49,836 bases of DNA from an uncultured Spiribacter sp. GTDB lineage: Bacteria > Pseudomonadota > Gammaproteobacteria > Nitrococcales > Nitrococcaceae. The stretch is from NCBI GenBank assembly GCA_913056145.1, contig CAJXMI010000005.1, positions 1-49,836 on the forward strand, given 5' to 3'. The translations under genes and the position numbers were made by a program. The notes beneath the pieces were generated by a model. The model was not told where the DNA came from. It ran no database searches and worked only from the letters and a program-made list of their open reading frames with translations. Positions 1,417 through 44,537 of the stretch are shown here, piece by piece (position 1 is the first letter of the stretch; every line of letters begins with the position of its first letter).

Positions 1417-2931
1417 ATGACAAGACCACCGCTCAGTATCGTTGTCCTCGCCGCGGGCGAGGGCAAGCGCATGCGCTCGGATCTCCCCAAAGTTCTTCAC
1501 CCGGTCGCCGGGCAGCCCATGCTCGCTCGGGTGCTGGACGTCGCAGCACGGCTGGAGCCGGCCGCTACGCATGTCGTCTATGGCCATCGTGGCGACGCAG
1601 TGCGCTCGGCCCTTGGCGAGCGTCCGATCCACTGGGTCCACCAGGCCGAGCAGCTCGGCACCGGGCACGCCGTCGCCCAGGCTTTGCCGGCGGTACCCGA
1701 CGATCACCAGGTTCTGGTGCTATGCGGCGATGTGCCGCTCATTCGCGCGGAGACATTGCAGCAGCTGCTAGAGGCCGCCGGACAGGCGGTCGGGCTGTTG
1801 ACCGTCACTCTCGCCAACCCCACTGGGTATGGGCGTGTTTTGCGGGATGCGTGTGACGGGGCGCGTGGGACGTGTGACGGAGGGCGTGATGCGTGTGACG
1901 GAGCGCGTGGGACGTGTGACGGAGCGCGTGAGGCGTCAGCGGGAGCGGGCGTGGCCGGGCCAGCGGGTTCGCCCGGAACGGTCCCGGGCATGGTCGCGGG
2001 TATCGTTGAAGAAAAGGATGCAAGCGCCGAACAGCGAGCCATTCGAGAGGTAAACACCGGAGTGATGTGTCTGCCTGCCGGGGCCTTGCGCGGCTGGCTC
2101 GCGGATCTGGATGCCGGCAATGCCCAGGGCGAGTATTACCTCACCGACTGCATTGCACGTGCCCGGCAGGATGGCGTCAGCGTCCATCCGGTTGCCTGTC
2201 ATGACCCCTGGGAGGTTCAGGGTGTTAACGACCGCGCCCAGCTGGCCGGCGTGGAGCGCGCCTGCCAGCGCCGGCAGGCCGAAGCGCTCATGTGTGAGCA
2301 GGGCCTTGGGCTTGCCGACCCCAACCGCTTCGATCTGCGCGGCATCCTCACCGTTGGCCGCGACTGCTTCATCGACACCAACGTCATCATCGAAGGCCAC
2401 GTTGTCCTCGGCGATGGCGTGCGGATCGGTCCCTTCACACGAGTCGTGGACAGCCACGTCGAGGCCGGCGCCACCATCCAGGCGCATTGCGAGATCGTGG
2501 ACAGTCACGTTGGCCGGGACTGCCAGGTCGGCCCCTTCGCCCGGCTTCGCCCCGGCACCCGCCTCGGCGCGGCCGCGCGCGTCGGCAATTTTGTCGAGAC
2601 GAAGCAGGCGGAGGTGGGCCCGGGCAGCAAGATCAACCATCTGTCCTATATCGGCGATGCACAGCTGGGCGCTAACGTGAATGTTGGCGCGGGCACCATT
2701 ACCTGCAACTACGATGGGCGGCACAAGCACCAGACGGTCATCGGAAGTGACAGCTTTGTCGGCTCCAATACCGCGCTCGTCGCCCCCGTGTCCGTCGGCG
2801 CCGGCGTAACGATTGGGGCAGGGACAACGGTCCGGGGCGACATCCCGGATGATACGCTCGCCATCGAGAGTGGACAGGCACGAAAGATACCCGGATGGCG
2901 GCCCGATTGGGCCAACAACGACAGGGAGTAG
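1417..2931 (+). CDS. glmU: Bifunctional GlcNAc-1-P uridylyltransferase / GlcN-1-P acetyltransferase with a repeat insertion
   Basis: Makes UDP-GlcNAc for peptidoglycan and LPS in the cytoplasm. The N-terminal pyrophosphorylase domain shows [18 protein letters not shown], and the C-terminal left-handed beta helix carries the acetyltransferase ([11 protein letters not shown]). The start is the ATG preceded by GAGGG, just before the nucleotidyltransferase motif. The protein is 504 residues against about 456 in Escherichia coli. The excess is a Cys/Gly-rich block near residues 143-190, between the GYGR loop and [10 protein letters not shown], made of a 21-bp tandem repeat. A TGGACAGGCA decamer at 2871 encodes SGQA near the C-terminus without changing the length there. 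TGGACAGCCA at 2447 and TGGACAGTCA at 2498 are near-matches. glmS follows 10 bases downstream. Confidence 0.96.
1846..1950 (+). repeat. 21-bp (7-residue) tandem repeat inside glmU
   Basis: About five degenerate 21-bp units, pairing into a 42-bp higher-order unit, translate as RDACDGA / RGTCDGG / RDACDGA / RGTCDGA / REASAGA. The 9-mer GTGTGACGG recurs four times. The repeat keeps the glmU frame and adds Cys-Asp-Gly heptads to a surface loop of the uridylyltransferase domain. It is unrelated to the TGGACAGGCA decamer. Confidence 0.93.
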
Positions 2932-2941
2932 AAGATCAGGG

Positions 2942-4774: not shown

Positions 4775-4787
4775 CACCGCCGCCTGC

Positions 4788-4890
4788 GTGCCTGTCCACT
4801 GCCCTGGGCCGTGCCTGTCCACTGCCGCCTGCGTGCCTGTCCACTGCCCTGGGCCGTGCCTGTCCACTGCCGGGGTCATGCCTGTCCACT
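4788..4890 (+). repeat. Tandem array of five decamer elements, 22-23 bp spacing
   Basis: Five copies of RTGCCTGTCCACT begin at 4788, 4811, 4833, 4856 and 4878, so successive distances are 23, 22, 23 and 22. Spacers alternate between a CTGGGCC type and a GCCTGC type, giving a 45-bp higher-order unit present about twice. All copies point the same way. The array sits just after glmS, where transcription of the glm operon would end, but no T-run hairpin is seen. From 4891 to the next gene at 5079 I see no other clear element. Confidence 0.95.
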
Positions 4891-5294: not shown

Positions 5295-5375
5295 TCGGAT
5301 GATGCGTGGCAGGGGCAAAAAAGTCATGAATTGGATGACCCGGCTCTGTTTGAGCCGGCGACCAGGGAGGTCCAT

Positions 5376-9719: not shown

Positions 9720-9733
9720 TAGTGGACAGGCAT
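9720..9733 (+). repeat. Decamer copy between divergent genes
   Basis: TAGTGGACAGGCAT, preceded by GG so that it reads GTAG-TGGACAGG. It lies in the 88-base gap between the SRPBCC gene and the rightward DUF4864-like gene. Confidence 0.9.
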
Positions 9734-9796: not shown

Positions 9797-10351
9797 GTGA
9801 AATTGTCACGATATTCACGGATGGGCGCCGTTCGCCTGCTTACAGGCTTCGTGCCTGTCCTGATTCTGGTTGCTGCCTGTCCCGCAGCGGCACAGCCGCT
9901 GCAGCCCGGGCCGGCATTGGAACCTGCCGAGGTTGTGTCGATTCAGCTGGAGGCACTTCAGCGCAACAACGAGCCACGTGCAAATGCCGGGATAGAGCAG
10001 GTGTGGGCCTTCGCCCACCCGCGGAATCGGGCGATTACCGGACCTCTATCCCGGTTCATGAGGATGCTTCGTGGCCCCGGTTACGGTGTGCTAATCAACC
10101 ATAGACGTCATGAAATACAGGAGGTTACGCTCAATGAGCGCGAAGCCCGCTACACTGTGACCGTGATCGCGAACGATGGCGGGTTCTTCAAGTTCGACTG
10201 GCGACTGGAGCTCGCGGATCTGGCGGTTGGCGCTGCCTGGATGACAACGCAGGTGATGCCGGGCCAGAGGACTGGAGAGCAGCTGTCCTCCCTCAGACCC
10301 TCAACTACGCGCCTGACTCCAGCGATCCTCGCCAGCAGAAAAAAGCTCTGA
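9797..10351 (+). CDS. Exported DUF4864-like protein
   Basis: A 184-residue protein with a signal peptide (RLLTGFVPVLILVAACPAAAQ) followed by a domain resembling DUF4864: IEQVWAFAHPRNRAITGPLSRFMRML and a PGYGVLINHRRHEI strand. GTG is the start, supported by AGGAGAG 8 bases upstream. Function unknown; likely periplasmic. TGCCTGTCC inside the signal peptide (VPVL) is a partial match to the decamer. Its last 51 bases overlap the 3' end of the convergent RAYT gene. Confidence 0.75.
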   Translation: MKLSRYSRMGAVRLLTGFVPVLILVAACPAAAQPLQPGPALEPAEVVSIQLEALQRNNEPRANAGIEQVWAFAHPRNRAITGPLSRFMRMLRGPGYGVLINHRRHEIQEVTLNEREARYTVTVIANDGGFFKFDWRLELADLAVGAAWMTTQVMPGQRTGEQLSSLRPSTTRLTPAILASRKKL

Positions 10352-11296
10352 GGTGATTGTCCCACCTTTAAGGAACCGCCGGCCGAGACGTGCTGCAGTG
10401 CGCCGCAGGACTGATGCGGATCCGAGCCACCGTGGCGACAATTTTCCGGGCTCCGAGAGAGCGCGCAAAAAGCCGTCCTGCCTAAGGCCAAGCCGGACCA
10501 TGAGATCGGGAAGATGCTCTGGAATGGCTCCGCGTTTTCCGCTGACGAGGCTGCGCCCGGACCAGTCCACCAGCATTAAATACTCGTCCAGTGAGCAGAG
10601 GCACTCGGACTCGGTTCGCCCGGGGGCTGTCAACGGAGCCAAGTGACGCGAAGCGCGCCGGCGCTGCTGGATGCGCTCCTGAATAGATGTGTAGTCGGAT
10701 GTTTCCGGCGTTTGCGCCATCCCGGCACGAACTGGATTGAGATCCACGTATGCCATTGCTGCAAGGAGTGCGCCGGCCGTCAACAGCGCCTGACTCCGGT
10801 AGCGGCTACTCCAGAAGTGCCCATTGACGTTGTCTTCCTGGTTCGCCATCCGAGCGATGGGTTCATTGATTGCCCGCATGAACCAGGAAACGCTTGCCAG
10901 GCGCTCACGATAGGCCGCAACGAGTCTGTGAATAGTCGCACGCTCCCCCCTGGTGACCACCTGGGACTTGAGAAAACGCTCGAGTAAGGGCGGGCCCCTG
11001 AACACCCGACGCCAGCGCTGGATCACTTCGCGATCACTCCAGCGCTCTACCTCGGACGGCCGCAGCTCAATCACCAGATGGAAGTGATTCGACATGACGG
11101 CGTAGGCATGAATGTCGATGGCAAACGCTGAGGCAGCCCGACGGAAGCGCTCCCTGATCCAGTCCTTGCGATGTGAGAAGTCCCGCCCCGTTGCACGGTC
11201 AAAGCCGCAGAGGAACTGCTGGCGAACGCAGCGCGACGTAATGTGGTAATAGGGTGTGGTCGCGGGGCTGATCAGCTGGCGTCTTGGCAGAGGCAT
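10301..11296 (-). CDS. REP-associated tyrosine transposase-like protein (RAYT, Y1/HUH)
   Basis: A 331-residue Y1_Tnp-type protein. The start MPLPRRQLISPATTPYYHITSRCVRQQFLCG is characteristic of the RAYT group, and MSNHFHLVI is the HUH (His-hydrophobic-His) metal site. Family knowledge places the nucleophilic Tyr in the helix after the core; candidates are the AAYRERL Tyr or the one in SSRYRSQ. A helical C-terminal extension follows. RAYTs are single-copy, domesticated relatives of IS200/IS605 transposases linked to short dispersed repeats. No terminal hairpins or target duplication that would define an IS are seen. A decamer lies 153 bases upstream of the start. The gene looks intact, so expression and activity are plausible but unproven. 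Confidence 0.88.
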   Translation of the reverse strand: MPLPRRQLISPATTPYYHITSRCVRQQFLCGFDRATGRDFSHRKDWIRERFRRAASAFAIDIHAYAVMSNHFHLVIELRPSEVERWSDREVIQRWRRVFRGPPLLERFLKSQVVTRGERATIHRLVAAYRERLASVSWFMRAINEPIARMANQEDNVNGHFWSSRYRSQALLTAGALLAAMAYVDLNPVRAGMAQTPETSDYTSIQERIQQRRRASRHLAPLTAPGRTESECLCSLDEYLMLVDWSGRSLVSGKRGAIPEHLPDLMVRLGLRQDGFLRALSEPGKLSPRWLGSASVLRRTAARLGRRFLKGGTITSELFSAGEDRWSQARS

Positions 11297-11448: not shown

Positions 11449-11476
11449 GTGCCTGTCCACTATTTCCGTCCACTAT
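11449..11476 (-). repeat. Decamer plus partial copy upstream of the RAYT gene
   Basis: GTGCCTGTCCACTAT at 11449 is followed by a truncated CCGTCCACTAT at 11466. Just before them TTCGCCCAG-type octamers repeat (11426-11443). This 223-base gap separates RAYT from the rightward FAH gene and holds nothing else I recognise. Confidence 0.88.
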
Positions 11477-16428: not shown

Positions 16429-17490
16429 ATGACGTTACTCACTGGTCGTTCGCACACATATGGGCCTAATTACTGGACAGGCAAGTACCCGGACCAGCCA
16501 TCAAAGGGTGCGGGGCGCATAAGCGCTGCGGCATGGCGCTGGCGGTTTCTGTTATGTGCCGCAATGTTCACGCTCAGCGCAAGCGTTGTCGCTGCGCCAC
16601 GGGTAGCGACGGACATCGCGCCGGTTCATTCCCTGGTTGCGATGGTGATGAAAGATATTGGACAGCCACAACTTGTAATCCAGCGCGGGGCTTCGCCGCA
16701 TAGTTATTCTTTGCGCCCTTCAGAGGCGGCGGCGCTGGAAGACGCTGAAGTTGTTTTCTGGACTAGCTCGCAGCTCACGCCCTGGCTGGAGCGAGCTTTG
16801 GAGAACCTCTCGGGCGACGCACGACGGGTAGAGCTGGTCCAGACCGAGGGTACGGTTCGGCATGAGTTTCGCGAGGCCATAGAGTTCAGTCAGCCACAAG
16901 AACCGGCAGTGGACAGGCACGAACACGCCGACCACGACCACGACCACGACCACGACCATTCGCATGAGGGCATCGACCCGCATGCCTGGCTGGATCCTTT
17001 GAATGCGCAAAACTGGATCACTGTGATAGCTAATACGCTCGCACAAACCGATCCTGCGAACGCCGCGGCCTATCGCAGTAATGCCAATGAAGCGCGTGAA
17101 CGCCTGAGCACGCTTATCGCTGAGGTTGATACTGAACTTGAGCCAGTGCGCAATGACGCCTTTATTGTGTTTCACGATGCCTACCAGTACTTCGAGAAAC
17201 GCTTCGAGTTAAACGGTGTTGGCGCTATCGCGCTGAGTGATGCAACAGATCCCAGTCCGGCGCGCATAGCCGCCATCAGGCGCATAGTGGAGCATCATGA
17301 TGTGCGCTGCGTGTTCGCGGAGCCGCAGTTCAACCCTGCCCTCGTCACTACAGTGCTGAACGGGACAGATGCCGGCACAGGCGTGTTGGATCCGCTTGGA
17401 AGCGACATCCCGGAAGGCATCGGGTTCTACCCGGCACTGCTCCAGGATCTGTCGAGCAGCTTGGCGGACTGCCTGAGGGACAACGCCTGA
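16429..17490 (+). CDS. znuA: Zinc-binding periplasmic protein
   Basis: Periplasmic solute-binding protein that hands Zn2+ to ZnuBC. It has the cluster A-I fold with metal-ligand histidines in APVHSLV, GASPHSY and GIDPHAWLDP, and a His/Asp-rich loop (about residues 160-182, HADHDHDHDHDHSHEG). The ATG follows GGAGGGATT and no other in-frame start precedes the signal peptide core (WRFLLCAAMFTLSASVVAA). This leaves an unusual ~36-residue N-terminal extension, part of which (YWTGK) is a decamer at 16474. A second decamer at 16910 encodes VDRH at the entrance of the His-rich loop. A TGGACAGCCA variant at 16659 falls on a conserved IGQPQ turn. Confidence 0.93.
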   Translation: MTLLTGRSHTYGPNYWTGKYPDQPSKGAGRISAAAWRWRFLLCAAMFTLSASVVAAPRVATDIAPVHSLVAMVMKDIGQPQLVIQRGASPHSYSLRPSEAAALEDAEVVFWTSSQLTPWLERALENLSGDARRVELVQTEGTVRHEFREAIEFSQPQEPAVDRHEHADHDHDHDHDHSHEGIDPHAWLDPLNAQNWITVIANTLAQTDPANAAAYRSNANEARERLSTLIAEVDTELEPVRNDAFIVFHDAYQYFEKRFELNGVGAIALSDATDPSPARIAAIRRIVEHHDVRCVFAEPQFNPALVTTVLNGTDAGTGVLDPLGSDIPEGIGFYPALLQDLSSSLADCLRDNA

Positions 17491-20908: not shown

Positions 20909-21631
20909 CTAGAGGTCGATAAGCACCTCTCTTTCCTCCTGCGACGGCTCGAAGTCGCGATCCTTGTAGTGCTCAAAGATTGCATCGACTGCATCTTGCG
21001 GGTTGTCCAGCACGCGAAAAAGCTGCAGGTCGCCGGCATTAATATGGCCGCTAGCCGCCATGCTTTGCTCGAGCCATGTGATCAAACCCTGCCAGTAGTC
21101 CGAATTCATCAGGATAATGGGTATGCGCCGGGTCTTGCCTGTCTGCACCAGGGTGAGAATTTCGGCGAGTTCGTCCAGTGTCCCGAATCCGCCGGGAAAG
21201 ACCACATAGGCGGAGGCATATTTCACGAACATCACTTTCCGCGAGAAAAAGTGCCGAAAATGGAGCGCCACCTCCTGATAGCGATTGGGAGTCTGCTCGC
21301 GCGGCAGTTCGATGTTGAGGCCAACGCTCGGTGATTTGCCGTCACGGGCGCCTTTGTTTGCCGCCTCCATGATCCCGGGCCCACCCCCGCTGATGATCGA
21401 AAAACCGGCATCCGAGAGCAGCCGCGCCGTCCGCTCCGCGCACTGGTAGGACGGGTGATCGGACGCGACCCGAGCTGACCCGAAAAAGCTGATAGAAGGC
21501 CGGATCCGCGCAAGGCGCTCAAAACCCTCCACAAACTCCGCCATGATCTGAAAGACCTTCCATGACTCTCGCGTCATCAATGCCTCGTCGATCCGCTGCC
21601 TGTCCGAGCTTTCGTGGTCGCCTTCGCTCAT
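20909..21631 (-). CDS. LOG family protein (Rossmann-fold nucleotide-binding)
   Basis: A 240-residue member of the TIGR00730/LOG group, homologous to cytokinin riboside 5'-monophosphate phosphoribohydrolases. Key motifs are SISFFGSARV, ISGGGPGIMEAANKGA and FPGGFGTLDELAE (the PGGxGTxxE signature). Bacterial members hydrolyse nucleoside 5'-monophosphates; the physiological role here is unknown. It is convergent with uvrD and divergent from polA. The N-terminal region is polar and its start is uncertain; the first ATG is used. TGCCTGTCCG at 21598 near its start is a partial decamer match. Confidence 0.9.
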   Translation of the reverse strand: MSEGDHESSDRQRIDEALMTRESWKVFQIMAEFVEGFERLARIRPSISFFGSARVASDHPSYQCAERTARLLSDAGFSIISGGGPGIMEAANKGARDGKSPSVGLNIELPREQTPNRYQEVALHFRHFFSRKVMFVKYASAYVVFPGGFGTLDELAEILTLVQTGKTRRIPIILMNSDYWQGLITWLEQSMAASGHINAGDLQLFRVLDNPQDAVDAIFEHYKDRDFEPSQEEREVLIDL

Positions 21632-21651
21632 CGCGCTGTCCTGGTGGGTAC

Positions 21652-21746
21652 GTGCCTGTCCAGTATCGTCGCATGCGGTTCGCTGCCTGTCTCATGCTCC
21701 GCCCGATGGGGTCGAGACGCGAGGCTCTCAACGTGCCTGTCCACTA
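21652..21746 (-). repeat. Two decamers in the LOG-polA divergent promoter region
   Basis: GTGCCTGTCCAGTA at 21652 and GTGCCTGTCCACTA at 21733, same orientation. They occupy the 164-base divergent intergenic region, the second ending 50 bases before polA. Confidence 0.92.
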
Positions 21747-21795
21747 CCGCGATGCCACGGGTATGATCCGGGGCGACCAATGCGAGGAAAAAGTC

Positions 21796-24513
21796 ATGAC
21801 CGACCGCGAAACGCGCCTGTTACTGGTGGATGGATCGTCCTATCTCTACCGCGCCTATCACGCACTCCCACCGCTGACCAACGCCAATAACGAGCCCACG
21901 GGGGCCATTTATGGCGTGATCAACATGCTTCGCCGGCTACTGGATGACTATCAGCCGAAATACATGGGGGTAGTGTTCGACGCACCTGGGAAGACTTTCC
22001 GGGATGAGCTTTTTGCGGAGTACAAGGCCAACCGCCCGGCGATGCCCGATGACCTTGCCGGCCAGATTGCGCCGCTGAAGCAGATCGTGCAGGCAATGGG
22101 GCTGCCGCTCATCGAGGTGAGCGGCGTGGAGGCCGACGATGTGATCGGGACGCTGGCGGTCCGAGGCCGCGCGGCGGGGTTGGAGCTGGTTATCTCGACT
22201 GGCGACAAGGACATGGCCCAACTGGTGAATGGCGATGTCACCTTGCTTAACACCATGTCGAACACGGTTCTGGACCATGATGGCGTCATTGATAAATTCG
22301 GTGTCCCTCCAGAGCGGATCATCGACTATCTCGCGCTCGTTGGCGACAGCTCTGACAACATCCCGGGCGTGCCCAAGGTTGGCCCGAAAACGGCGGCAAA
22401 GTGGCTTGGCCAATATGGGTCTCTCGATGGCATTCGCGAGAACGCTGATGCGATAGGCGGCAAGGTCGGTGAAAGCCTGCGGGAGCACATCGATGCCCTT
22501 GACCTGTCGCGCCAGCTGGCCACCATCCACTGCGACGTGCAACTGCCGGTAGAGCCCAGCGACCTGACCCTGCGTGACCCTGACCACGATTCCTTGGCTG
22601 TCCACTACCGCCACCTCGGCTTCAACACCTGGCTGCGCGAAGTCGAGGACGTGGACAGGCACAAGCAGACCGGAGACGACCCATCCATCGATGCGCGTGC
22701 CCCAGCCGAGTATGTCTGCATCCAGGACCAGACCACGTTCGAGACCTGGTTGAAGCGGCTGGAGGCATCGGAGGTTTTCTCGTTTGATCTCGAGACGGAC
22801 AGCCTCGATTACATGCGTGCGCGCATCGTCGGCGTTTCTTTCTGCGTCGATGCTGGACAGGCAGCGTATTTGCCGCTCGCGCACAGCGGCCCTGATCAGC
22901 CGGAGCAGCTGGATCGGGATCAGGTATTGGAGCGGTTGCGGCCGATTCTGGAGGATGTGGACAGGCACAAGCTGGGCCAGAATCTTAAATACGACATGAG
23001 TGTGCTGGCCAACCACGGCATCACCCTGCGCGGTATCGCGCACGACACGATGCTCGAGTCCTATTGTCTGGACGCTACCGCAAGTCGCCATGATATGGAC
23101 TCGCTCGCTGGAAAGTATCTTGGTTTTCAGCCCATCAGTTACGAGCAGGTAGCGGGCAAGGGCGCTAAGCAGATCACGTTTGATCAGGTCGCATTGGGTG
23201 AGGCAACGGACTACGCGGCCGAGGATGCGGACATTGCCCTCCAGCTCCACGAGCACCTATGGCCACGGCTATCCGAAAGGCCTGGCCCCAAGGCGGTTTA
23301 TGAGGACATCGAAATCCCCCTCGTTCCCGTCCTATCTCGAATGGAGCGGACCGGTGTTCGAGTGGACGCCGAGTTGCTGGCCACTCAGAGCCGGGAGCTG
23401 GCCGAGACCATGCAGACGCTCGAGTCGCGCGCTCACGAATCCGCGGGAGGTCCCTTCAACCTGGGTTCACCAAAACAGATCCAGGAGATTCTCTATGAAC
23501 GTCAGGGCCTGCCTGTCCTCTCGAAGACGCCGAAAGGAGCCCCCTCAACGGCCGAGTCGGTGCTGGACGAGCTTGCTGCGCAGGGCCATGAACTGCCCAG
23601 GCTCATTCTCGACTACCGCACGGTGTCCAAGCTGCGTTCAACCTACACGGAAAAGCTCCCGACGCTCATCAACCCGGATACCGGTCGTGTTCACACGTCC
23701 TACCATCAGGCGGTAGCGGCGACGGGGAGGCTGTCTTCTTCCGACCCCAACCTGCAGAACATTCCTGTTCGAAGCGCCGAGGGCCGGCGGATTCGCCGCG
23801 CCTTTGTGCCATCCGAGGGGCATGTCCTACTGGCCGCCGATTATTCCCAGGTTGAATTGCGCATCATGGCGCATCTCTCAGGTGACGAGGGCCTGATGCG
23901 CGCGTTTGCCGAAGGGGAAGATATCCATGCCGCAACCGCGTCCGAGGTGTTTGGCGGGAGTTCGTGGACAGTCACGAAGGACCAGCGCCGAGCGGCAAAG
24001 GCCATTAACTTTGGCCTGATCTATGGGATGTCCGCCTGGGGGCTGGCGCGTCAGCTGGGCATTGAGCGTGGTGATGCGCAGGCCTACGTCGATCGCTATT
24101 TCGAGCGCTACCCGGGCGTGCGTGCGTTTATGGACCGAACCCGCCAGTCCGCGCATGAGAAGGGCTATGTCGAGACCGTGTTCGGTCGGCGTCTGTATCT
24201 GCCGGAGATCAATAGCCGCAACAACCAGCGCCGCCAGTACGCTGAGCGCACCGCCATCAATGCGCCAATGCAGGGAACGGCGGCCGACATCATCAAGCGC
24301 GCGATGATTGCGGTCGACGATTGGATCATGCGGGAGTCACCCGGGGCCGCCCTCGTCATGCAGGTACATGATGAGCTCATCCTCGAGGTAGTGGACAGGC
24401 ACGTTGATGAGGTGACGGAGCGGGTTCGGCGCTTCATGGCGGATGCTGCCAGCCTGGCTGTCGCGCTGGAGGTTGAGGTCGGCACGGGAGCCAACTGGGA
24501 GGCCGCCCACTGA
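21796..24513 (+). CDS. polA: DNA polymerase I
   Basis: Repair and Okazaki-fragment polymerase, 905 residues. The 5' nuclease domain starts LLVDGSSYLYRAYHALPPL. The proofreading domain keeps the catalytic acids in FDLETDSLDYM, so 3'-5' exonuclease should be active. The polymerase shows motif A ADYSQVELRIMAH, B RRAAKAINFGLIYG and C MQVHDELILEV. ATG is preceded by GAGGAAAA. It carries four exact decamers (22652, 22854, 22958, 24392) and variants (22595, 23965). Copies at 22958 (DVDRHKLGQN) and 24392 (EVVDRHVDEV) align without gaps to the E. coli protein as I recall it, so substitution, not insertion, seems to have created them. Confidence 0.97.
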   Translation: MTDRETRLLLVDGSSYLYRAYHALPPLTNANNEPTGAIYGVINMLRRLLDDYQPKYMGVVFDAPGKTFRDELFAEYKANRPAMPDDLAGQIAPLKQIVQAMGLPLIEVSGVEADDVIGTLAVRGRAAGLELVISTGDKDMAQLVNGDVTLLNTMSNTVLDHDGVIDKFGVPPERIIDYLALVGDSSDNIPGVPKVGPKTAAKWLGQYGSLDGIRENADAIGGKVGESLREHIDALDLSRQLATIHCDVQLPVEPSDLTLRDPDHDSLAVHYRHLGFNTWLREVEDVDRHKQTGDDPSIDARAPAEYVCIQDQTTFETWLKRLEASEVFSFDLETDSLDYMRARIVGVSFCVDAGQAAYLPLAHSGPDQPEQLDRDQVLERLRPILEDVDRHKLGQNLKYDMSVLANHGITLRGIAHDTMLESYCLDATASRHDMDSLAGKYLGFQPISYEQVAGKGAKQITFDQVALGEATDYAAEDADIALQLHEHLWPRLSERPGPKAVYEDIEIPLVPVLSRMERTGVRVDAELLATQSRELAETMQTLESRAHESAGGPFNLGSPKQIQEILYERQGLPVLSKTPKGAPSTAESVLDELAAQGHELPRLILDYRTVSKLRSTYTEKLPTLINPDTGRVHTSYHQAVAATGRLSSSDPNLQNIPVRSAEGRRIRRAFVPSEGHVLLAADYSQVELRIMAHLSGDEGLMRAFAEGEDIHAATASEVFGGSSWTVTKDQRRAAKAINFGLIYGMSAWGLARQLGIERGDAQAYVDRYFERYPGVRAFMDRTRQSAHEKGYVETVFGRRLYLPEINSRNNQRRQYAERTAINAPMQGTAADIIKRAMIAVDDWIMRESPGAALVMQVHDELILEVVDRHVDEVTERVRRFMADAASLAVALEVEVGTGANWEAAH

Positions 24514-24749: not shown

Positions 24750-25448
24750 CTAGCCCTCGTTACCCAGCAGCCACGCGTCCAGCTGCGATCGCGCGGCGTC
24801 AACCCCCTGGCGGGTCTCAGCCGAGAAGAGCTGCAGCGTCGTTTGTGGACAGGCACGCAATAGCGGCCCCCGGATTTTTTGTAAGGCATTGCCGGCCGGG
24901 CCCCGCCGTAGTTTGTCGGCTTTACTGAGAAGGACATGCACCGGTAGCCCGGCGGCAGCTGCCCAGATCAGCATCTGTTCATCGAGGGGCCCTAGCGGAT
25001 GGCGAATGTCCATGATGACCACCAACCCGCGCAGACTGCGCCGGCCTTCGAGGTACGCGGGCAGAGCGCGCTGCCAGTGCGCCCGTATGGCGGGCGGAGC
25101 CTTCGCATAGCCGTAGCCGGGCAGATCAACGAGGCGGTAGCGATGGGTGTGTGCCTGTCCACTGTCGATACCTGCCTGTCCAGCACCGCCGATACCTGCC
25201 TGTCCACTACCAGCCTCCGCGCCGGCGACGTGCCTGTCCGGGATCGGGAAGACGTTGATTTGCTGAGTGCGCCCGGGGGTTTTGCTGACGCGCGCTAGGC
25301 TGCGCTGATCGGTGATGGCGTTGAGGGCGCTTGACTTGCCGGCGTTGGAGCGGCCGGCGAAGGCGACCTCGGCGCCATCGTCGGGTGGGAGCTGCCCAGG
25401 CTCGGGTGCTGAGAGAAGAAAGCGGGCCTGACGGTAGTCAAGGGACAT
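24750..25448 (-). CDS. engB: Ribosome-biogenesis GTPase EngB (YsxC/YihA) with a repeat-built loop
   Basis: Essential GTPase of 50S subunit assembly. G1 GRSNAGKSS, switch I TPGRTQQIN, G3 DLPGYG, G4 SKAD and G5 SAETRQG are all present. The protein has 232 residues versus 210 in E. coli. The extra length is residues about 71-103 (DRHVAGAEAGSGQAGIGGAG...SGQAHTHR), between the strand after switch I and the G3 strand. This insertion is encoded by three exact decamers (25152, 25173, 25197) plus a near copy at 25231, each giving GQA or DRH. Another exact copy at 24846 encodes ACP near the C-terminus. Start ATG is at MSLDYRQARF. Divergent from cytochrome c4. Confidence 0.95.
   Translation of the reverse strand: MSLDYRQARFLLSAPEPGQLPPDDGAEVAFAGRSNAGKSSALNAITDQRSLARVSKTPGRTQQINVFPIPDRHVAGAEAGSGQAGIGGAGQAGIDSGQAHTHRYRLVDLPGYGYAKAPPAIRAHWQRALPAYLEGRRSLRGLVVIMDIRHPLGPLDEQMLIWAAAAGLPVHVLLSKADKLRRGPAGNALQKIRGPLLRACPQTTLQLFSAETRQGVDAARSQLDAWLLGNEG
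25151..25241 (-). repeat. Cluster of four decamers inside engB
   Basis: TGCCTGTCCA cores at 25152, 25173 and 25197 and TGCCTGTCCG at 25231; distances 21, 24 and 34. In the gene's sense the elements read TGGACAGGCA. The intervening DNA (ACCGCCGATACC-like) is partly repeated too, with CGATACCTGCCTGTCCA occurring twice. All frames stay open and the engB frame is kept. Confidence 0.95.
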
Positions 25449-30370: not shown

Positions 30371-30376
30371 CCCGGC

Positions 30377-31977: not shown

Positions 31978-32719
31978 GCCAGTTGAAACGGGGTTAGAAG
32001 CAGGGACAGCCGCAAAATCCGACAAGGGATCATCCTCCAGCGTTGCGCCAATTCTCGAGGCCCGCGGGCTTGCTATGCGCTTTGATGCCCCCGAGGGCCG
32101 AATCAGTCTGTTCGAAAGCCTTGATCTTAGCATCGACGCCGGTGACTCCCTCGCGATCCTGGGCACCTCGGGGTCGGGCAAGTCCACCCTGCTTGGCCTG
32201 CTCGCCGGGCTGGACCTGCCGAGCGCTGGCACCGTGGTACTGGACAGGCACGATCTCACGAAGCTCGACGAGGATGAACGTGCAGTTCTGCGCTCCGGGC
32301 GCGTCGGCTTTGTCTTTCAGGCCTTCCACCTGCTGCCCGGGCTGACTGCCCTCGAAAACGTCATGCTCCCTGCCGAGCTGGTAGTGGACAGGCACGCACG
32401 TCAGCGAGCGCGCGATGCGCTCGCCCGGGTGGGCTTGGCTGATCGGCTGGCACATTATCCGGCGCAGTTGTCTGGCGGCGAGCAGCAGCGGGTGGCGCTG
32501 GCGCGGGCGTTCATCACACAGCCTGGCATCCTCTTCGCCGATGAGCCCACCGGCAACCTGGATCATCGCACCGGCGCCCAGATTATTGATCTTTTGTTTG
32601 AACTGAATCGGGATCACGGCACCACTCTGGTGCTGGTCACTCATGACCAGGCCGTGGCTGAGCGTTGTCACCATGTCCGCTATCTGCGGGACGGCCGGCT
32701 TTTCGAGGCAGCGGCCTGA
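31976..32719 (+). CDS. ybbA: ABC transporter ATPase YbbA
   Basis: LolD/MacB-type ATPase working with the permease YbbP. Walker [10 protein letters not shown], signature LSGGEQQR, Walker B GILFADEP, and H-loop LVTHDQAV. 247 residues. AGGAG at 31960 supports the ATG, and that ribosome site lies within the tesA coding start. Two decamers encode [15 protein letters not shown] (32241) and [14 protein letters not shown] (32387); both fall at positions where homologues have variable turns, without clear length change. Stop and ybbP start overlap as TGATG. Confidence 0.94.
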
Positions 32720-37242: not shown

Positions 37243-38106
37243 CTAGCGTTCCTCGACGGCGAGGCCGTCCAGGTATTCCGTCCAGCGCCAGTCCGGATCG
37301 CCCAAGGCGACAAAATTAGGGTTCAGGATCGAGGCTTTTGTGTTGTAGCGAAGCGGCCGCCCATCCGGCCGGATAACGGCTCCCCCTGCGGCTTCGACAA
37401 TGCACTGCGCGGCGGCGCTGTCCCATTCCGACGTGGGCCCGAACCGCGGGTAGCAGTCGGCGCTTCCCTCCGCCACCAGGCAGAACTTCAAAGAACTCCC
37501 CACCGACGTTGTGTCGTGGGGCGGCAGCCGAGTCAGCAGGCTGTCCACTGCCGGGCTGCGATGCGAGCGGCTGACCACCAGCATCAGCGCCTCATCATCC
37601 ACCGCCCGGGTGGCCAGCGGGGTCACGCCATCGGTATCACGTCGCTCCGCACGGCGGTAGTGGACAGGCACGTTGTCTGCGGGCACGTCGTCCGCGTCCT
37701 GGTAGTGGACAGCCACGTAGGTTCGGGAGAGTACGGGCGCGTGGATGATGCCGATCACCGGGCGGCCGCGGTGGATCAGGGCAATGTTCACGGTGAACTC
37801 GCCGTTGCGTTTAACGAATTCACGGGTGCCATCCAGCGGATCCACCAGCCAGTAATGCGACCAGTCCTGGCGATCTTCCCACGTCGGGATGCCACCTTCC
37901 TCGGAGAGCACCGGGATGTCGGGTGTGAGTGCTTCGAGCGAGCGGTTGATGAGTGTGTGCGCGACCCGATCGGCGGCGGTCAGCGGCGAGTCGTCGACCT
38001 TGGTCTCGACATCGAAGTCGGCAGCATAAATGGAAAGAATCTCACGGCCGGCCGACTCGGCAATTTTCACGACCTCGTCGATGAGGCCCTCTGCATCCCT
38101 TTCCAT
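37243..38106 (-). CDS. cysQ: 3'(2'),5'-bisphosphate nucleotidase CysQ with a repeat-built insertion
   Basis: Recycles PAP (3'-phosphoadenosine 5'-phosphate) from sulfate assimilation to AMP. It shows SEEGG, WLVDPLDGTREFVKRNGEF (metal-binding WxVDPLDGT) and a second site PTSEWDSAAAQCIVEAAGG. 287 residues against about 246 in E. coli. Much of the excess is near YVAVHYQDADDVPADNVPVHYRRAERR, made by a decamer (37661) and a variant (37706), each giving VHY. It sits between the APVL strand and the next domain, where E. coli has a short loop. TGTCCACT at 37542 is a partial match. Confidence 0.93.
   Translation of the reverse strand: MERDAEGLIDEVVKIAESAGREILSIYAADFDVETKVDDSPLTAADRVAHTLINRSLEALTPDIPVLSEEGGIPTWEDRQDWSHYWLVDPLDGTREFVKRNGEFTVNIALIHRGRPVIGIIHAPVLSRTYVAVHYQDADDVPADNVPVHYRRAERRDTDGVTPLATRAVDDEALMLVVSRSHRSPAVDSLLTRLPPHDTTSVGSSLKFCLVAEGSADCYPRFGPTSEWDSAAAQCIVEAAGGAVIRPDGRPLRYNTKASILNPNFVALGDPDWRWTEYLDGLAVEER
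37658..37716 (+). repeat. Decamer pair inside cysQ, 45 bp apart
   Basis: TAGTGGACAGGCAC at 37658 and TAGTGGACAGCCAC at 37703; both are preceded by GG/CG so the tetranucleotide GTAG flanks the core. The 45-base distance equals two 22.5-base steps. Confidence 0.92.
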
Positions 38107-40023: not shown

Positions 40024-40545
40024 CTAGTCTGACTCCACTCGTTCCCACGTCTCGAAATCCATCGGCCAGGCATGCTCGGCATCCGCTGGATGATGGGTGG
40101 TGTCAGTGCAACGCCATTCCGGTCCCTCAAAGGGTGGAAAAAAAGTGTCGCCCGGGATATCCGCCAGCACCCGCGTGAGTTCGATGCGATCGGCTTGCGG
40201 GAGGAAGGCGGCGTAGATCTCGGCGCCTCCGATGATGGCGATTTCGGGCACATCACCCGCGGTCGTCAGCGCCCCCTCCACATCGTGAACCACCTCGCAG
40301 CCCTCCGCGCTCCAGCTGCGGTCGCGGGTCATAACGATGTTCTGGCGCTTTGGCAGCGGCCGTCCGATCGACTGGTAGTTGCGCCGGCCCATGACGATCG
40401 GCTTGCCGCGCGTCAGTGCCACGAAGCGCCGCATGTCATCCGGCAGCCGCCACGGCAGATCCTGATCCCGCCCAATGACTCGGTTTTGCGACATCGCGAC
40501 CACCATCGTGAGGCGGGGTTCGTGCCTGTCCACTGTTGAGTTCAT
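40024..40545 (-). CDS. folA: Dihydrofolate reductase
   Basis: NADPH-dependent reduction of dihydrofolate, needed after the ThyA reaction. Fold markers: VVAMSQNRVIGRDQDLPWRLPDDMRRF, GKPIVMGRRNYQSIG and IIGGAEIYAAFLPQADRIELTRV. The start is ambiguous: the ATG at 40545 (173 residues) is itself part of a decamer (GGCATG), a GTG at 40533 is the GTG of another decamer (VDRHEP), and ATG 40506 would cut into the first strand. AAGGA lies 12 bases before the first. thyA lies just upstream on the same strand, so the pair is likely co-transcribed. Confidence 0.93.
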   Translation of the reverse strand: MNSTVDRHEPRLTMVVAMSQNRVIGRDQDLPWRLPDDMRRFVALTRGKPIVMGRRNYQSIGRPLPKRQNIVMTRDRSWSAEGCEVVHDVEGALTTAGDVPEIAIIGGAEIYAAFLPQADRIELTRVLADIPGDTFFPPFEGPEWRCTDTTHHPADAEHAWPMDFETWERVESD

Positions 40546-40580
40546 GCCTGTCCAGGTTCCTTGTTTGTGCCTGTCCACTA
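40522..40580 (-). repeat. Array of three decamers at the folA start
   Basis: GTGCCTGTCCACT at 40522, ATGCCTGTCCAGG at 40544 and GTGCCTGTCCACTA at 40567; distances 22 and 23 bases, the same spacing as the array after glmS. It spans the folA translation start and the gap to thyA. Confidence 0.93.
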
Positions 40581-40604: not shown

Positions 40605-41399
40605 TTAGACCGCCACCGGTGCGGCGATGTGCGGATGCGACTGATAGCCCTCGAGGGCGATGTCTTCGAAACGAAAGGCAAAGAGGTCGTCGACCTCCGG
40701 GTTGAGTCGCAGGGTCGGTAGGGGCAGCGGCTCCCTTTGCAGCTGCGTATCCGCCTGCTCGATATGGTTGAGATACAGGTGGGCATCGCCGAGCGTGTGC
40801 ACGAATTCGCCCACCTGCAGCTCCGTCACTTGCGCGACCATGTGGGTGAGCAGTGCATAGGACGCGATGTTGAACGGTACGCCCAGGAAGATATCAGCAC
40901 TTCGCTGATAGAGCTGACATGAGAGCCGGCCCTCCGCCACATAAAACTGAAACAGGACATGACAGGGCGGAAGCCCCATCCGGTCAACCTCGGCCGGGTT
41001 CCATGCCGTCACGATATGGCGGCGGGAATCGGGTTGCGTTCGGATCTGGTCAACCACCTGGGCAATCTGGTCAATATGCGCGCCATCAGCTGCCGGCCAT
41101 GAGCGCCACTGCACCCCGTAAATCGGTCCGAGGTCGCCGTTCTCATCTGCCCAATCATCCCAGATGCGGACGCCGTTTTCCTTGAGGTAGGCGATGTTGC
41201 TGTCACCAGCCAGGAACCACAGCAGTTCGTGAATGATCGAGCGCAGATGAAGTTTTTTCGTGGTGACTACCGGAAATCCTCTGGCGAGATCAAAGCGCAT
41301 CTGCCAACCAAAAGTGGACAGCGTTCCCGTGCCCGTCCGATCGGATTTGCGGACGCCGTTGTGACGGACGTGATGCAGAAGCTCTAGATACTGGCGCAT
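40605..41399 (-). CDS. thyA: Thymidylate synthase
   Basis: Makes dTMP from dUMP using methylene-THF. 264 residues, as in E. coli. Catalytic Cys is in [32 protein letters not shown] is the N-terminal phosphate loop, and the C-terminus ends HIAAPVAV. The start [11 protein letters not shown] is standard; the in-frame codons upstream come from a decamer and lack a ribosome site. Confidence 0.97.
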
Positions 41400-41411
41400 T
41401 GGGCTACTCGG

Positions 41412-41474
41412 GTACTGGACAGGCACAAGATGCTATCCGATTCGTGCCTGTCCAGTACAACGTGCCTGTCCAGT
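41412..41474. repeat. Decamer hairpin plus third copy between lgt and thyA
   Basis: GTACTGGACAGGCAC (41412-41426) and GTGCCTGTCCAGTAC (41444-41458) are perfect 15-bp inverted arms around a 17-base loop, followed by GTGCCTGTCCAGT at 41462. It lies after lgt and before thyA, both leftward, so it could act as an intercistronic stem-loop. No T-run follows. Confidence 0.95.
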
Positions 41475-41505
41475 GCCCGAGCACAAGGGTTTGAGGTCGA
41501 ACGGA

Positions 41506-42291
41506 TCAGCGTCGTCCCGCGCGAATGGCCCAGCCCATGAGCATGGCACCGCCCAGAATCATCGGCAGGGAGAGGGCTTGGCCCATGGTAAGCCACCCCC
41601 AGGCGAGGTAGCCGATGTGGGGGTCGGGCAGGCGGACGAACTCCACTACGAATCGCGCGGCGCCATAGCCCATCAGGAACAGCCCCGTGACTGCGCCCGC
41701 GGGCCTGGGCCGACGCGAAAACCACCAGACCACAATGAACAGCAGGATCCCTTCAAGCGCCATCTGGTAGAGCTGTGAGGGATGCCGTGGGTCGGGGCCG
41801 AGGGGTGGGAACACCATGCCCCACGGGAGATTCGTCGGAGCACCCCAGAGTTCGCCGTTGATGAAATTGCCCAGCCGCCCGGCCGCCAGCCCGGGTGGAA
41901 TGAGCGGCGCCACGAAATCGCCAAGCGCCAGTGGTCGGATCCGGTGATAGCGGGCATACAGCCACATTGCGACGATGACGCCGACCAGCCCGCCGTGAAA
42001 GGCCATGCCGCCTTCCCAAACCCGCAGCAGTGAGAGCGGATCGGCGAGCACCTGATCGCTGGCGTAGAAAATCGCGTAGCCGAGCCGGCCGCCAACGATG
42101 ACCCCGGCCGCGCCAAAAAGCAGCAGGTCGTCGATCTGCGCGGGCTTGATCGGGATATCGCGGCGTGCGGCACGAAGCCGGCCAAGCCACCAAGCCAGTC
42201 CGAACCCCACTGCGTACATCACGCCATACCAGTAGATATCGAGCGGGCCGATGGAGATGGCAACAGGATCGAAGGCGGGGTAACTCAACAT
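41506..42291 (-). CDS. lgt: Prolipoprotein diacylglyceryl transferase
   Basis: Inner-membrane enzyme that adds diacylglycerol to lipoprotein cysteines. 261 residues, seven membrane segments. It shows [12 protein letters not shown] at the first helix, the conserved FHGGLVG, and the Lgt signature [13 protein letters not shown] with the essential Arg/Asn/Glu. The start [17 protein letters not shown] is the usual N-terminus; an ATG 18 bases upstream is possible. Position beside thyA is conserved in gammaproteobacteria. Confidence 0.96.
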
Positions 42292-42318
42292 GCCTGCATT
42301 CTGACGCATTCAACAAAG

Positions 42319-42397
42319 AGTGGACAGGCACGGTCCTGTTACTGGACAGGCATGGCCCAGGAGGCATGGCCCAGCATTTCGTGGGTGTCCACTACCA
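42319..42397 (+). repeat. Direct decamer pair, 22 bp apart, plus degenerate copy
   Basis: AGTGGACAGGCAC at 42319 and TACTGGACAGGCAT at 42340, cores 22 bases apart; a degraded GGGTGTCCACTACC follows near 42383. GGCATGGCCCAG is also repeated between them and 42371. They fill the divergent gap between lgt and the SH3 gene. Confidence 0.9.
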
Positions 42398-42449
42398 GGG
42401 TCTTCGGCTAGACTGGCAGTTCACTTTTTCCTTGATTACGGGGGTTTCG

Positions 42450-43136
42450 GTGCGGCGACTAGCTGGCGCGGCAGGCCGATTGGTGCTGTTCGGGCTGATC
42501 GGGTTTGTGCCTGTCCACTACCTCGGCATGGGGGTGGCAGTGGCGCAGACCACGGCCTATGTGACGGACGAGCTTGAGATCACGATGCGCAGCGGCGAGG
42601 GCAATGAGTACCGGATCATTCGCCTGCTCACGTCCGGAACGCAGCTCGAGGTGCTCGAACGCGGAGAGGCGTGGTCACGCGTGCGCGCCGGAGGTGACAC
42701 CGGCTGGGTGCGCAGCGTGTACCTGCAGGCGGAACCGGTTGCCATCAACCGTCTCGACGCCGCTATCAGCGAGGCCGAGCAGCTGCGCGAGGAAAATCGC
42801 GAGCTCACTGCCGCTCTGGAGGATGCAGAGCGCAGCGTTGCCGAGCTTGGTGACACCAGCGCCACTCTGCAGGACGAAAACCAGCGCATGCAGCAGCGTC
42901 TGCAGGAAGCGGGTGAAGGCCTGCAACTGGCCGATGAGAACCAAGTCCTGCGCAAGCAAGTGGTCGACCTCGAACGGGCAGTGCAGGATCTAACCCGCGA
43001 GAACGAGCGCATGGCCGATCGCGAACGCCAGGACTGGTTTATCGCCGGCGCTGGCGTAATCGTGGTCGGCATGATCATTGGCATACTGGTCACCCGTATT
43101 CGTTGGCGCCGGCGCAGCAGCTGGGGCGACCTCTAG
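42450..43136 (+). CDS. Exported SH3-domain/coiled-coil protein (TIGR04211-type)
   Basis: A 228-residue envelope protein. After the signal sequence (LVLFGLIGFVPVHYLGMGVAVAQ) comes a bacterial SH3 domain (TTAYVTDELEITMRSGEGNEYRIIRLLTSG...GWVRSVYLQ), a long Glu-rich coiled coil (about residues 110-195) and a C-terminal membrane anchor (FIAGAGVIVVGMIIGILVTRIRWRRR). This architecture is that of YgiM-like proteins. GTG start is supported by a GGGG tract upstream but is not certain. The decamer at 42508 encodes VPVHY within the signal peptide hydrophobic core. Confidence 0.85.
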   Translation: MRRLAGAAGRLVLFGLIGFVPVHYLGMGVAVAQTTAYVTDELEITMRSGEGNEYRIIRLLTSGTQLEVLERGEAWSRVRAGGDTGWVRSVYLQAEPVAINRLDAAISEAEQLREENRELTAALEDAERSVAELGDTSATLQDENQRMQQRLQEAGEGLQLADENQVLRKQVVDLERAVQDLTRENERMADRERQDWFIAGAGVIVVGMIIGILVTRIRWRRRSSWGDL

Positions 43137-43145
43137 GGCATCCCC

Positions 43146-44537
43146 ATGGACGAACAAATCACCCGCCTGGTCCGCTGGTTCCGTCACAGCACGCCCTATA
43201 TCCATGCCCACCGTGGTCACACTTTTGTTGTCAGCTTTGGCGGCGAGACGCTGGCTGCCGGTGAGGCCGCCGGGCTCATCCATGATCTGGCCCTGCTGCG
43301 CGGGCTGGGAGTGCGGCTGGTGTTGGTGCCCGGCGCGCGACCGCAAGTCGAGCAACGCCTTAACGCCCGGGGCGCGGCCATTGAGTATGTGAACGGGCTG
43401 CGTGTGACCAACCCCGAGGCACTTGCCTGTGTGCGCGATGCCGTGGGCAGCGTCCGGCTTGAGCTGGAAGCGCTGTTTTCGATGGGCCTTGGCAACTCGC
43501 CGATGGCCGGGCTGCGCCTGCAGGTCGCGTCGGGCAACTTCGTGACGGCCCGTCCGCTTGGGATTCGGGATGGCGTTGATTATCAGCACACCGGTGAGGT
43601 GCGCAGAATCGATGCCGATGCCATTCGTGCGCGACTCGACGATGGTGCCGTTGCCCTTGTGAGCCCGCTCGGCGTCTCACCGACGGGCGAGCAGTTCAAC
43701 CTCTATGCCGAAGATGTCGCGGTCTCGGTGGCCCGCACCCTCCAGGCCGACAAGCTGATCTACCTCCACGAGGGCTCGCAGCTTGTGGACAGGCACGATC
43801 GTCCGGTTGGCGAACTGACGGTGGAGGAGGCAGCTGCTTGCCTGTCCACAACAACGTGCCTGTCCAGTACCTCGCGGACCGAGCCCGGGAGTAGTGGACA
43901 GGCACGTTGTTCGGCGCAGGGGGTGGCGCCGCAGCTCGAGCGGGCCATTGAGGCGTGTCGGAGTGGGGTGCCGCGGGTGCATCTGTTGCCGCGGGCGATG
44001 GACGGGGCCTTGCTGGGGGAGCTCTTTACGCGGGACGGAGTGGGTACATTGATCACCCCACGCCCCTTCGAGCAGCTACGCACCGCGCGGGTCGGCGACA
44101 TCAGCGGCGTCCTGGCGCTGATTGCCCCGCTTGAGCGCGATGGCACGCTTGTCGAGCGCACCCGCGAGCGGCTTGAGACGGAGATCGAGGATTTTACGGT
44201 GATGGAGCGCGAAGGCACTGTCGTGGCCTGCGCCGCGCTGCACCCGCTGGCAAACAGCGCTGTGGCCGAGCTGGCCTGTGTGGTGGTGCACCCGGAGTAT
44301 CGCAGCGGCCACCGTGGCGCCCGCCTGCTGGAGAGCATCGAACAGGATGCGCTTCGCGCCGGCTACGAGCAGCTGTGCGTGCTGACCACCCGCACAGCCC
44401 ACTGGTTTCGAGAACACGGCTTTGAGCCAGCCGAAGTGGACGATCTGCCCGTGAGCCGTCAGGCCTTTTACAACCTGGCGCGCGGCTCGCAGGTGCTGGT
44501 CAAGACCCTCAAACCCTCAGCGCATGGCGATGCGTGA
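43146..44537 (+). CDS. argA: N-acetylglutamate synthase with a repeat-built linker
   Basis: First step of arginine synthesis: acetyl-CoA plus glutamate. The N-terminal amino-acid-kinase-like domain (FVVSFGGETLAAGEAAGLIHDLALL, LVLVPGARPQVEQRL) is followed by a C-terminal GNAT acetyltransferase (VACAALHPL, ELACVVVHPEYRSGHRGARLL, LCVLTTRTAHWF). 463 residues versus 443 in E. coli. Residues about 214-258 are unusual: four decamers encode VDRHDRP, CLSTT, CLSST and SGQAR in a linker before QLERAIEACRSGV. Its 3' end overlaps the convergent bax-like gene by 21 bases. Confidence 0.95.
   Translation: MDEQITRLVRWFRHSTPYIHAHRGHTFVVSFGGETLAAGEAAGLIHDLALLRGLGVRLVLVPGARPQVEQRLNARGAAIEYVNGLRVTNPEALACVRDAVGSVRLELEALFSMGLGNSPMAGLRLQVASGNFVTARPLGIRDGVDYQHTGEVRRIDADAIRARLDDGAVALVSPLGVSPTGEQFNLYAEDVAVSVARTLQADKLIYLHEGSQLVDRHDRPVGELTVEEAAACLSTTTCLSSTSRTEPGSSGQARCSAQGVAPQLERAIEACRSGVPRVHLLPRAMDGALLGELFTRDGVGTLITPRPFEQLRTARVGDISGVLALIAPLERDGTLVERTRERLETEIEDFTVMEREGTVVACAALHPLANSAVAELACVVVHPEYRSGHRGARLLESIEQDALRAGYEQLCVLTTRTAHWFREHGFEPAEVDDLPVSRQAFYNLARGSQVLVKTLKPSAHGDA
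43784..43908. repeat. Four decamers inside argA with an inverted pair
   Basis: Cores at 43786 (+), 43839 (-), 43857 (-) and 43895 (+). AACGTGCCTGTCCA (43853-43866) and TGGACAGGCACGTT (43895-43908) are 14-bp perfect inverted arms with a 28-base loop, a hairpin within coding sequence. Confidence 0.95.

Follow-up and report, generated by a model that had tools for sequence, protein, structure and literature searches.

A short, hairpin-free word is concentrated around a RAYT/TnpA-Y1 gene in the Spiribacter group and is spelled differently in different species

The DNA uptake sequences of Neisseria and Haemophilus are short, non-palindromic words that occur in many copies, also within genes, and matS/MatP, parS/ParB and KOPS provide examples of dispersed short sites that are limited to, or polarised in, part of a chromosome. 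Palindromic REP sequences accumulate in the vicinity of rayt genes, within no more than two hundred kb, and the co-evolution of RAYT proteins with REPs has been published (PMC2817692, PMC8266576). For subclass 2.3 of the TnpA-Y1 proteins, Quentin et al. (2018) described a median length of approximately 325 amino acids, inserts in the core and a long C-terminal tail; in the same paper, REP-like sequences were not found for subclasses 2.1 and 2.3, in the case of subclass 2.3 by either automatic or manual searches (PMC6006769). We analysed a 49,836-nucleotide stretch of an uncultured Spiribacter sp. (contig CAJXMI010000005.1), referred to below as the window, which is one whole contig of a host assembly (GCA_913056145.1, here G000) of 1,867,007 bases in 144 contigs. 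The window contains a RAYT/TnpA-Y1 gene surrounded by copies of a decamer (spellings TGGACAGGCA / TGCCTGTCCA), which is probably the core of an approximately 15-nucleotide (nt) cognate site of the encoded protein, in a non-palindromic, REP-like system that is local and that keeps or rewrites its sites. The central features are as follows.

2871..43904, both strands: halo of TGGACAGGCA, 57 sites, plus 12 of TGGACAGCCA in the window (from counts and neighbourhood comparison)
10301..11296, minus strand: RAYT/TnpA-Y1 gene, 331 amino acids, HFH at 71-73 and Y183-VDLNP (from Pfam, NCBIfam, alignments and fold); proposed recogniser of the repeated word
11450..11459, minus strand: TGGACAGGCA site directly upstream of the RAYT gene
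9723..9732, plus strand: further TGGACAGGCA site, downstream of the gene; the relative G005 has TGGACACCCA in alignment with it

A recount of both strands of the window yielded 57 exact copies of TGGACAGGCA (28 on the plus and 29 on the minus strand) between 2871 and 43904, the same numbers as in a preliminary description of this DNA, and TGGACAGGCA ranks first among the window's decamers when both strands are tallied. The number is far above chance, as had been stated: 100 dinucleotide shuffles of the window gave a mean of 0.15 and a maximum of 3 copies, and none approached 57. The variant TGGACAGCCA occurs 12 times rather than the 11 times previously given, and the longer consensus GGTAGTGGACAGGCACG proposed at the same time is correct for the window. 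The consensus derived from the aligned copies is GgTAGTGGACAGGCACG, with information extending from approximately six bases 5' to four bases 3' of a nine-base core.

The concentration of copies is local. The whole assembly contains 68 copies of TGGACAGGCA, 57 of which lie on the window contig, for which a share of 2.7% is expected from its length. The eleven copies beyond the window are found on contigs C1, C2, C6, C48 and C84 and may be neighbours of the same halo or strays; a close decamer pair lies near a contig end, at C2:232-259. Among 39 relatives, the exact word was frequent in the same-genus genomes G003 (44 copies) and G011 (24), and the same-genus G007 has 7 copies versus 0 of the reversed control word, with the remaining relatives near control counts. 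The genome-wide density implied by the preliminary description is therefore wrong, because 57 of the 68 copies sit on one 50-kb contig and most relatives are near control counts; a density limited to the window is what that description had itself named as evidence against a genome signal.

RAYT homologues were detected in 10 of the 13 same-genus relatives, including all nine of those that are at least 90% complete; the three relatives without a detected homologue (G006, G007 and G009) are 74-86% complete. Each positive genome has one strong match, except for two in G011, and a further, weak match (E 2.4e-8) is present in G004. We compared twelve RAYT neighbourhoods of 32 to 123 kb each, namely the window and 11 from the same genus. 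In all twelve, the top decamer is a related word of the form [A/G]GACA-NN-CA, in which the dinucleotide and the preceding base vary, and 23-73 copies of the local core form a halo of roughly 10-60 kb. The top decamer is TGGACACCCA in G005 (46 copies), GGACAGACAC in G004 (26), TGGACAGGCA in G003 (27, plus 12 of AGACACCCAC) and GGGACAGGCA in the second-clade genomes G001, G002, G008, G010, G012 and G013 (22-37 each). The individual words are TGGACAGGCAC, TGGACACCCAC, GGGACAGACAC, GGGACAGGCAC and AGACACCCAC.

The genome with two RAYT genes, G011, has a different word by each of them. GGACAGGCAC (38 copies) and AGGACAGGCA (36) are found by the first and AGACACCCAC (59) by the second; 65 copies of GGACAGGCA with 6 of AGACACCCA lie by one gene, versus 73 of AGACACCCA with 8 of GGACAGGCA by the other. 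The first of these halos is broad, with copies throughout the 100 kb taken. Over the whole genomes of six relatives that are complete or nearly so, the copies of the local word within 40 kb on either side of the RAYT gene amount to 30/37 in G001, 31/35 in G002, 23/25 in G008, 32/36 in G012, 26/27 in G004 and 31/41 in G005, where the copies outside the halo are dispersed singly. In far controls of 80 kb each from G004, G005 and G011, chosen blind to copies, related words were absent from the ten decamers listed; a fourth control set, from G000, contained 7 copies and is not neutral, having been picked partly for outlying copies. At matching positions in species without the RAYT in question (four 80-kb stretches), no [A/G]GACANNCA core exceeded 4 copies. 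The association of the word with the RAYT is thus strong, and the local halo is consistent with preferential activity near the RAYT gene. Location, co-variation and the two-RAYT genome all suggest that the RAYT recognises the word.

We also scanned species genomes more widely and took the best 80 of 586 RAYT loci, with up to 10 kb per flank, many flanks being shortened by contig ends; removal of two Spiribacter-group loci left 78 outside the genus. A single GGACANNCA word reached four copies or more at 28 of these 78 loci, versus a mean of 0.47 for 200 letter-permuted words at the same loci (maximum 10, for a word overlapping the motif). The proportion was 18 of 36 for loci with full flanks, and 79 of the 135 copies at those full-flank loci lie in the RAYT gene or within 1 kb of it. 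Sites of the GGACANNCA type therefore surround RAYT genes of the same type in many, not all, of the sampled Gammaproteobacteria. Separately, loci L152 and L161 have other repeated words near the RAYT, ATCATCGGA (21 copies) and GTTGCCTGA (22 copies), respectively, which are not of the GGACANNCA type. Two metagenome bins titled Klebsiella pneumoniae (L154 and L193; G+C fraction 0.59-0.61) carry RAYTs of the same type, and these titles may be wrong. Two loci from Pseudoalteromonas luteoviolacea strains with close RAYTs differ in their commonest GGACANNCA word, which has GG in L158 (6 copies, with two GA copies) and GA in L197 (4 copies, with one GG copy); this pair offers a modest natural experiment on the residues that set specificity.

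The window RAYT protein gave a Pfam Y1_Tnp match (E 3.3e-7). In an alignment of 56 sequences, consisting of the window protein and 55 of the 65 frames extracted from the 80 loci, residues H71, H73, Y183, N187 and P188 are invariant, and Y---NP is the tyrosine signature of TnpA-Y1 proteins according to PMC6006769. An AlphaFold2 model of the protein (pLDDT 89, pTM 0.90) had as its best PDB fold match the RAYT-REP complex 4er8 (probability 1.00, TM by target length 0.63), and a sequence search of the protein against solved structures gave no match. The model contains extra segments at 23-42, between the first strand and the first long helix, and at 79-135, past the third strand, as well as a C-terminal tail of helices at 204-330. 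By its length near the median of 325 amino acids, its two core inserts, its long helical tail and its gammaproteobacterial spread, the predicted protein fits the text description of subclass 2.3, a comparison made with that text. It differs from the subclass in that a repeat family is present here, whereas subclass 2.3 was reported without REP-like sequences in PMC6006769. Given that the present repeat family is hairpin-free, the hairpin-based prediction described there would miss such repeats.

The lack of a hairpin was apparent in two ways. A flank-pairing test of the 12 halos revealed no consistent pair (the largest z was 3.4 among 144 pairs per halo, at differing places), and folding of 41-nt site windows showed no gain over composition-matched controls in any of the five of 12 halos tested. 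A flanking hairpin composed of a conserved loop and a variable stem (GTTTG...CAAAC in G001) was considered as a candidate and was rejected, with no consistent covariation and no folding gain in those five halos. Set beside the GT[AG]G head of REPs, the flank head reads GgTAGT in the window; the second clade has gTTTG there, and G011b has cAtCC. The extragenic position of canonical REPs does not apply here either, in that 35 of the window's 69 sites fall within conserved portions of genes.

The system thus resembles RAYT/REP/BIME/REPIN systems (REPtron) in its HUH-tyrosine fold, in the presence of one or two genes per genome, each with its own flanking repeat family, and in that protein and repeat vary together. 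It differs from them in a repeat of only about 15 nt without a palindrome or hairpin signal, in the intragenic position of about half of the copies and in shared positions with species-specific words. The REP-type signal raised as one option in the preliminary description accordingly stands in part: the copies do surround and vary with a RAYT, but they lack a palindrome or hairpin, are intragenic in about half of cases and are local. With IS200/IS605 elements the protein shares the Y1 HUH catalytic core, as judged from fold matches; it differs in that the window RAYT is not a multicopy mobile unit in the genus and in that the repeats, which alone were folded, show no hairpin excess.

Sites are retained between related species even as their flanks diverge. 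For GGGACAGGCAC, the word of the second clade, the numbers of identical aligned sites were 23/24 (G001 to G002), 28/30 (G012 to G013), 28/35 (G013 to G012), 15/21 (G008 to G010), 23/27 (G001 to G012) and 11/22 (G002 to G008), counts that omit unalignable sites such as 6 of 30 in the first comparison. The corresponding values for intact random 11-mers with similar flank identity were 9%, 19%, 17%, 15%, 4% and 3%, and four other comparison directions gave a similar result. The 31 differences listed for three close pairs include four gains of 20-26 nt adjoining a shared site; the rest are a few gains of about 15 nt and mostly base changes.

Between species with different words, the sites coincide in position more often than expected. 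In DNA alignments, a G004 site lies on the same strand and no more than 4 nt away for 18 of the 41 window sites that aligned (0.11 expected by chance), and a G005 site does so for 15 of 38 (0.16 expected), the coincident sites being in exact register in both cases. The preceding base differs in 18/18 of the window/G004 coincidences, agreement of the core and difference at the seventh base in coincident sites being a consequence of the site definition. When we asked what stands at each aligned position, window sites in G004 (39 aligned) showed the G004 word at 17, the window word at 1, another form at 1, none at 16 and a gap at 4, so that 17 of the 19 occupied positions in this clearest pair and direction carry G004's own word. 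In G005 (36 aligned), they showed the G005 word at 15, the window word at 2, no other form, none at 16 and a gap at 3. Conversely, G004 sites in the window (33 aligned) gave the window word at 17, the G004 word at 1, other forms at 4, none at 8 and a gap at 3, and G005 sites in the window (32 aligned) gave the window word at 15, the G005 word at 4, another form at 1, none at 11 and a gap at 1. Where a position is shared, the word found there is in most cases that of the local RAYT. The alignments show concerted switching at a good part of the dispersed sites, alongside sites private to one species.

The intragenic sites offer a view of how sites arise. Site-by-homologue protein alignments with two RAYT-free species were gap-free in 43 of 67 cases. 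At 26 gap-free sites (47 pairs), DNA identity fell from 0.67 in the flanks to 0.49 in the core, and the RAYT-free tract matched the word at 4.66 of 10 bases at the site, versus 2.36-3.28 at in-frame shifts. On the basis of the gap-free alignments and the partial tract matches, most intragenic sites appear to arise via length-neutral change of partly similar tracts, a view biased by selection against frame shifts. In the DNA polymerase I gene, for example, protein alignment places VDRH in the window, EDRH in G004 and QDTH in G011 at shared codons. Individual sites in the window are the following.

4789..4888, minus strand: five-site tandem array, spacing 22-23 nt
22958..22967, plus strand: site within the gene for DNA polymerase I, VDRH; these codons give EDRH in G004, LDTH in G005 and VDRH in G003; both RAYT-free homologues have neither site nor gap here
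24392..24401, plus strand: site in the DNA polymerase I gene, VDRH; EDRH in G004, QDTH in G011; PAGE/PAGD in RAYT-free homologues, gap-free
25152..25206, minus strand: three close sites in a GTPase gene, part of an in-frame insertion that the RAYT-free homologues lack
32385..32394, plus strand: site in an ABC-transporter ATPase gene, with G004's own word in place
37661..37670, plus strand: site in an inositol-monophosphatase-family gene; the aligned G004 position has G004's own word
40523..40577, minus strand: tandem group of three sites at the beginning of the DHFR frame
43786..43904, no single strand assigned: four sites in an argA-like kinase/acetyltransferase gene at the halo edge, with the G004 word at three positions

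We take the GTPase gene to be engB-like, from its Pfam MMR_HSR1 match. A site also lies in the His-rich loop of a ZnuA-like zinc-binding protein (window 16429-17490), and in G003 and G011 the corresponding loops have repeated DTH, which is how the word GACACCCAC translates. Upstream sites at window positions 2813-2940, 21562-21814, 40524-40578 and 41396-41426 are in open frame with genes (VDRH, VPVHY, VPVQY), and such sites would mislead automatic start-codon calling.

With regard to mechanism, the HUH/tyrosine enzyme would bind and cut its own site in single-stranded DNA, acting mainly close to its own gene and spreading and maintaining sites there; as its specificity drifted, existing sites would be converted to the new word. 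By one speculative route, a short strand excised from tandem sites would pair with a partly matching tract and then be copied in. Copying of an oligonucleotide into such a tract would account for the length-neutral coding changes. In vitro processing of repeats as single strands by TnpA-REP proteins has been reported (PMC8266576), which makes single-strand chemistry by the RAYT plausible. In its strongest form, this proposal makes the RAYT a local DNA-rewriting enzyme that, over distances of tens of kb from its gene, overwrites partly matching tracts of approximately 10-15 nt, housekeeping codons included, with the word that it recognises and without change of length, and that re-spells the whole set upon a change of specificity. 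We advance it tentatively, as a possibility that we would not call likely. The maintenance and switching of sites are consistent with either enzyme-driven conversion or selection at each site, and the data favour neither.

A second explanation is classical REP-like insertion, in which short units are inserted near the gene, lost and re-inserted at old sites, so that switching in place is mimicked. Among sites no more than 60 nt apart, with halos pooled and orthologous sites counted repeatedly, 64 close pairs are direct and 11 inverted, and 33 of the direct pairs are spaced by 15-27 nt; length gains of 15-26 nt adjoin shared sites in close species, and local accumulation is published for palindromic REPs (PMC2817692, PMC8266576). 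The gap-free majority of the site-by-homologue protein alignments (43 of 67) and the exact register of the window/G004 and window/G005 coincident sites speak against insertion, which we regard as somewhat unlikely.

Alternatively, the sites might bind the RAYT or a partner in a host function and be kept under selection, their words shifting by ordinary mutation in the manner of co-evolving transcription-factor sites. Strong site retention would be expected in such a case, and the length-neutral origin of intragenic sites at partly similar tracts also agrees with it. However, this explanation requires parallel change at about 17 dispersed sites, several of them in housekeeping genes, and the tandem gains of 15-26 nt that separate close species resemble copying. 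A requirement for dozens of sites close to a transposase gene is not known, which also counts against a host function. We therefore consider this explanation unlikely.

A DNA uptake sequence or a segregation or origin signal is a further alternative, uptake and segregation having been raised in the preliminary description. High copy number, strand balance in the window and intragenic copies agree with such a role, and there is a likeness to DNA uptake sequences (a short, non-palindromic word with many copies, also in genes) and to matS/MatP, parS/ParB and KOPS (dispersed short sites in part of a chromosome). But the word is not genome-wide in G000 or its relatives, its copies being concentrated in a halo within tens of kb of one gene, and it differs between several congeners. 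The location of the halo tracks the RAYT gene rather than the origin or terminus: RAYT loci lie 22-24 kb from dnaA on one side in G004, G005 and G011 and 132-168 kb away on the opposite side in G001, G002, G008, G011 and G012, with halos at both positions in G011. The halos, off-centre from dnaA and at two different distances from it, are therefore not origin markers, and an uptake or segregation role is highly improbable. Chance, low complexity or an assembly artefact can be dismissed for practical purposes, in spite of the fragmentation into 144 contigs, given that none of the 100 shuffles came near 57 copies and that relatives with a single-contig chromosome show the same pattern.

Returning to the word as the cognate site of the RAYT, several results weigh against this explanation. 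The NCBIfam model REP_Tyr_transpos (NF047646) matched the window protein at E 8.9e-14 and 51.6 bits, under its cut-off of 80, so that the protein appears from its sequence to be a divergent relative, and the 4er8 fold match has an E of 0.0026, no fold match reaching 0.001. Fewer than four copies of one GGACANNCA word were present at 50 of the 78 loci outside the genus, some of which have other local words. Shared sites in which each species has its own word are fewer elsewhere, with 8 each way for G004/G005 and, for G011b, 5 with the window, 4 with G004 and 6 with G005. Contig C8 of G003 (31,650 bp; L075, L076 and L036) contains one detected RAYT amid TGGACAGGCA, TGGACACCCA and A/G-AGACACCCA, perhaps a halo caught in the middle of a specificity change, or perhaps a case in which a second RAYT is missing from an incomplete assembly. 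On a RAYT tree of 38 rows (12 genus rows, plus the 26 with a clear commonest word among the 65 outside or public loci that were extracted), the variable dinucleotide requires at least 13 changes, and 17 of 200 shuffles were as low, which is weak clustering; GG is clustered on this tree (2 of 500 shuffles as low) and CC is not (388 of 500). The link between word and protein therefore rests on local clusters and not on the tree. Strand bias is inconsistent across halos: second-clade halos are biased (10/27, 27/8, 19/6 and 10/26), as is G011b (DGACACCCAC, 76/29 genome-wide). Finally, retention together with word switching could reflect selection on a host function rather than copying by the enzyme. 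As for a lagging-strand rule, none is claimed, the G011b bias appearing opposite relative to the fork and the window being balanced.

By its Pfam matches, the window is an ordinary piece of Spiribacter-group chromosome with one unusual gene, the Y1 transposase-like gene. From their domains, we take the other genes to include those for ATP synthase, glmU-like and glmS-like proteins, PAS proteins, zinc uptake, a LysR regulator, UvrD, DNA polymerase I, a GTPase, ResB, cytochrome assembly, a DsbA-like protein, an ABC ATPase, an FtsX-like permease, PHB synthase, Rho, DHFR, thymidylate synthase, Lgt, an ArgA-like kinase/acetyltransferase, 5-FTHF ligase and an M24 peptidase. The sole Rfam match in the window at gathering thresholds is 6S RNA, and a tRNA search of the window found none.

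Among the matches listed from the open-licence literature, a domain that leaves out most subscription papers as well as preprints, none dealt with repeats of subclass 2.3, as judged by title or start of abstract, and the matches listed for the motif letters were all unrelated by title. As far as these searches show, a hairpin-free repeat for this subclass, its frequent intragenic position, its retention and its species-specific spelling in place are new within that literature. A class of domesticated transposases described without target repeats thus appears to own short, hairpin-free repeats centred on its gene. Orthologous sites that each species spells in its own way record, in nature, how a protein and dozens of its DNA targets change together, and the manner in which REP-like sequences spread becomes directly testable, with a single enzyme, one short word, a restricted radius and species pairs that differ in their words. 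If rewriting proved true, a transposase-derived enzyme would edit coding sequence in place, as in the gene for DNA polymerase I.

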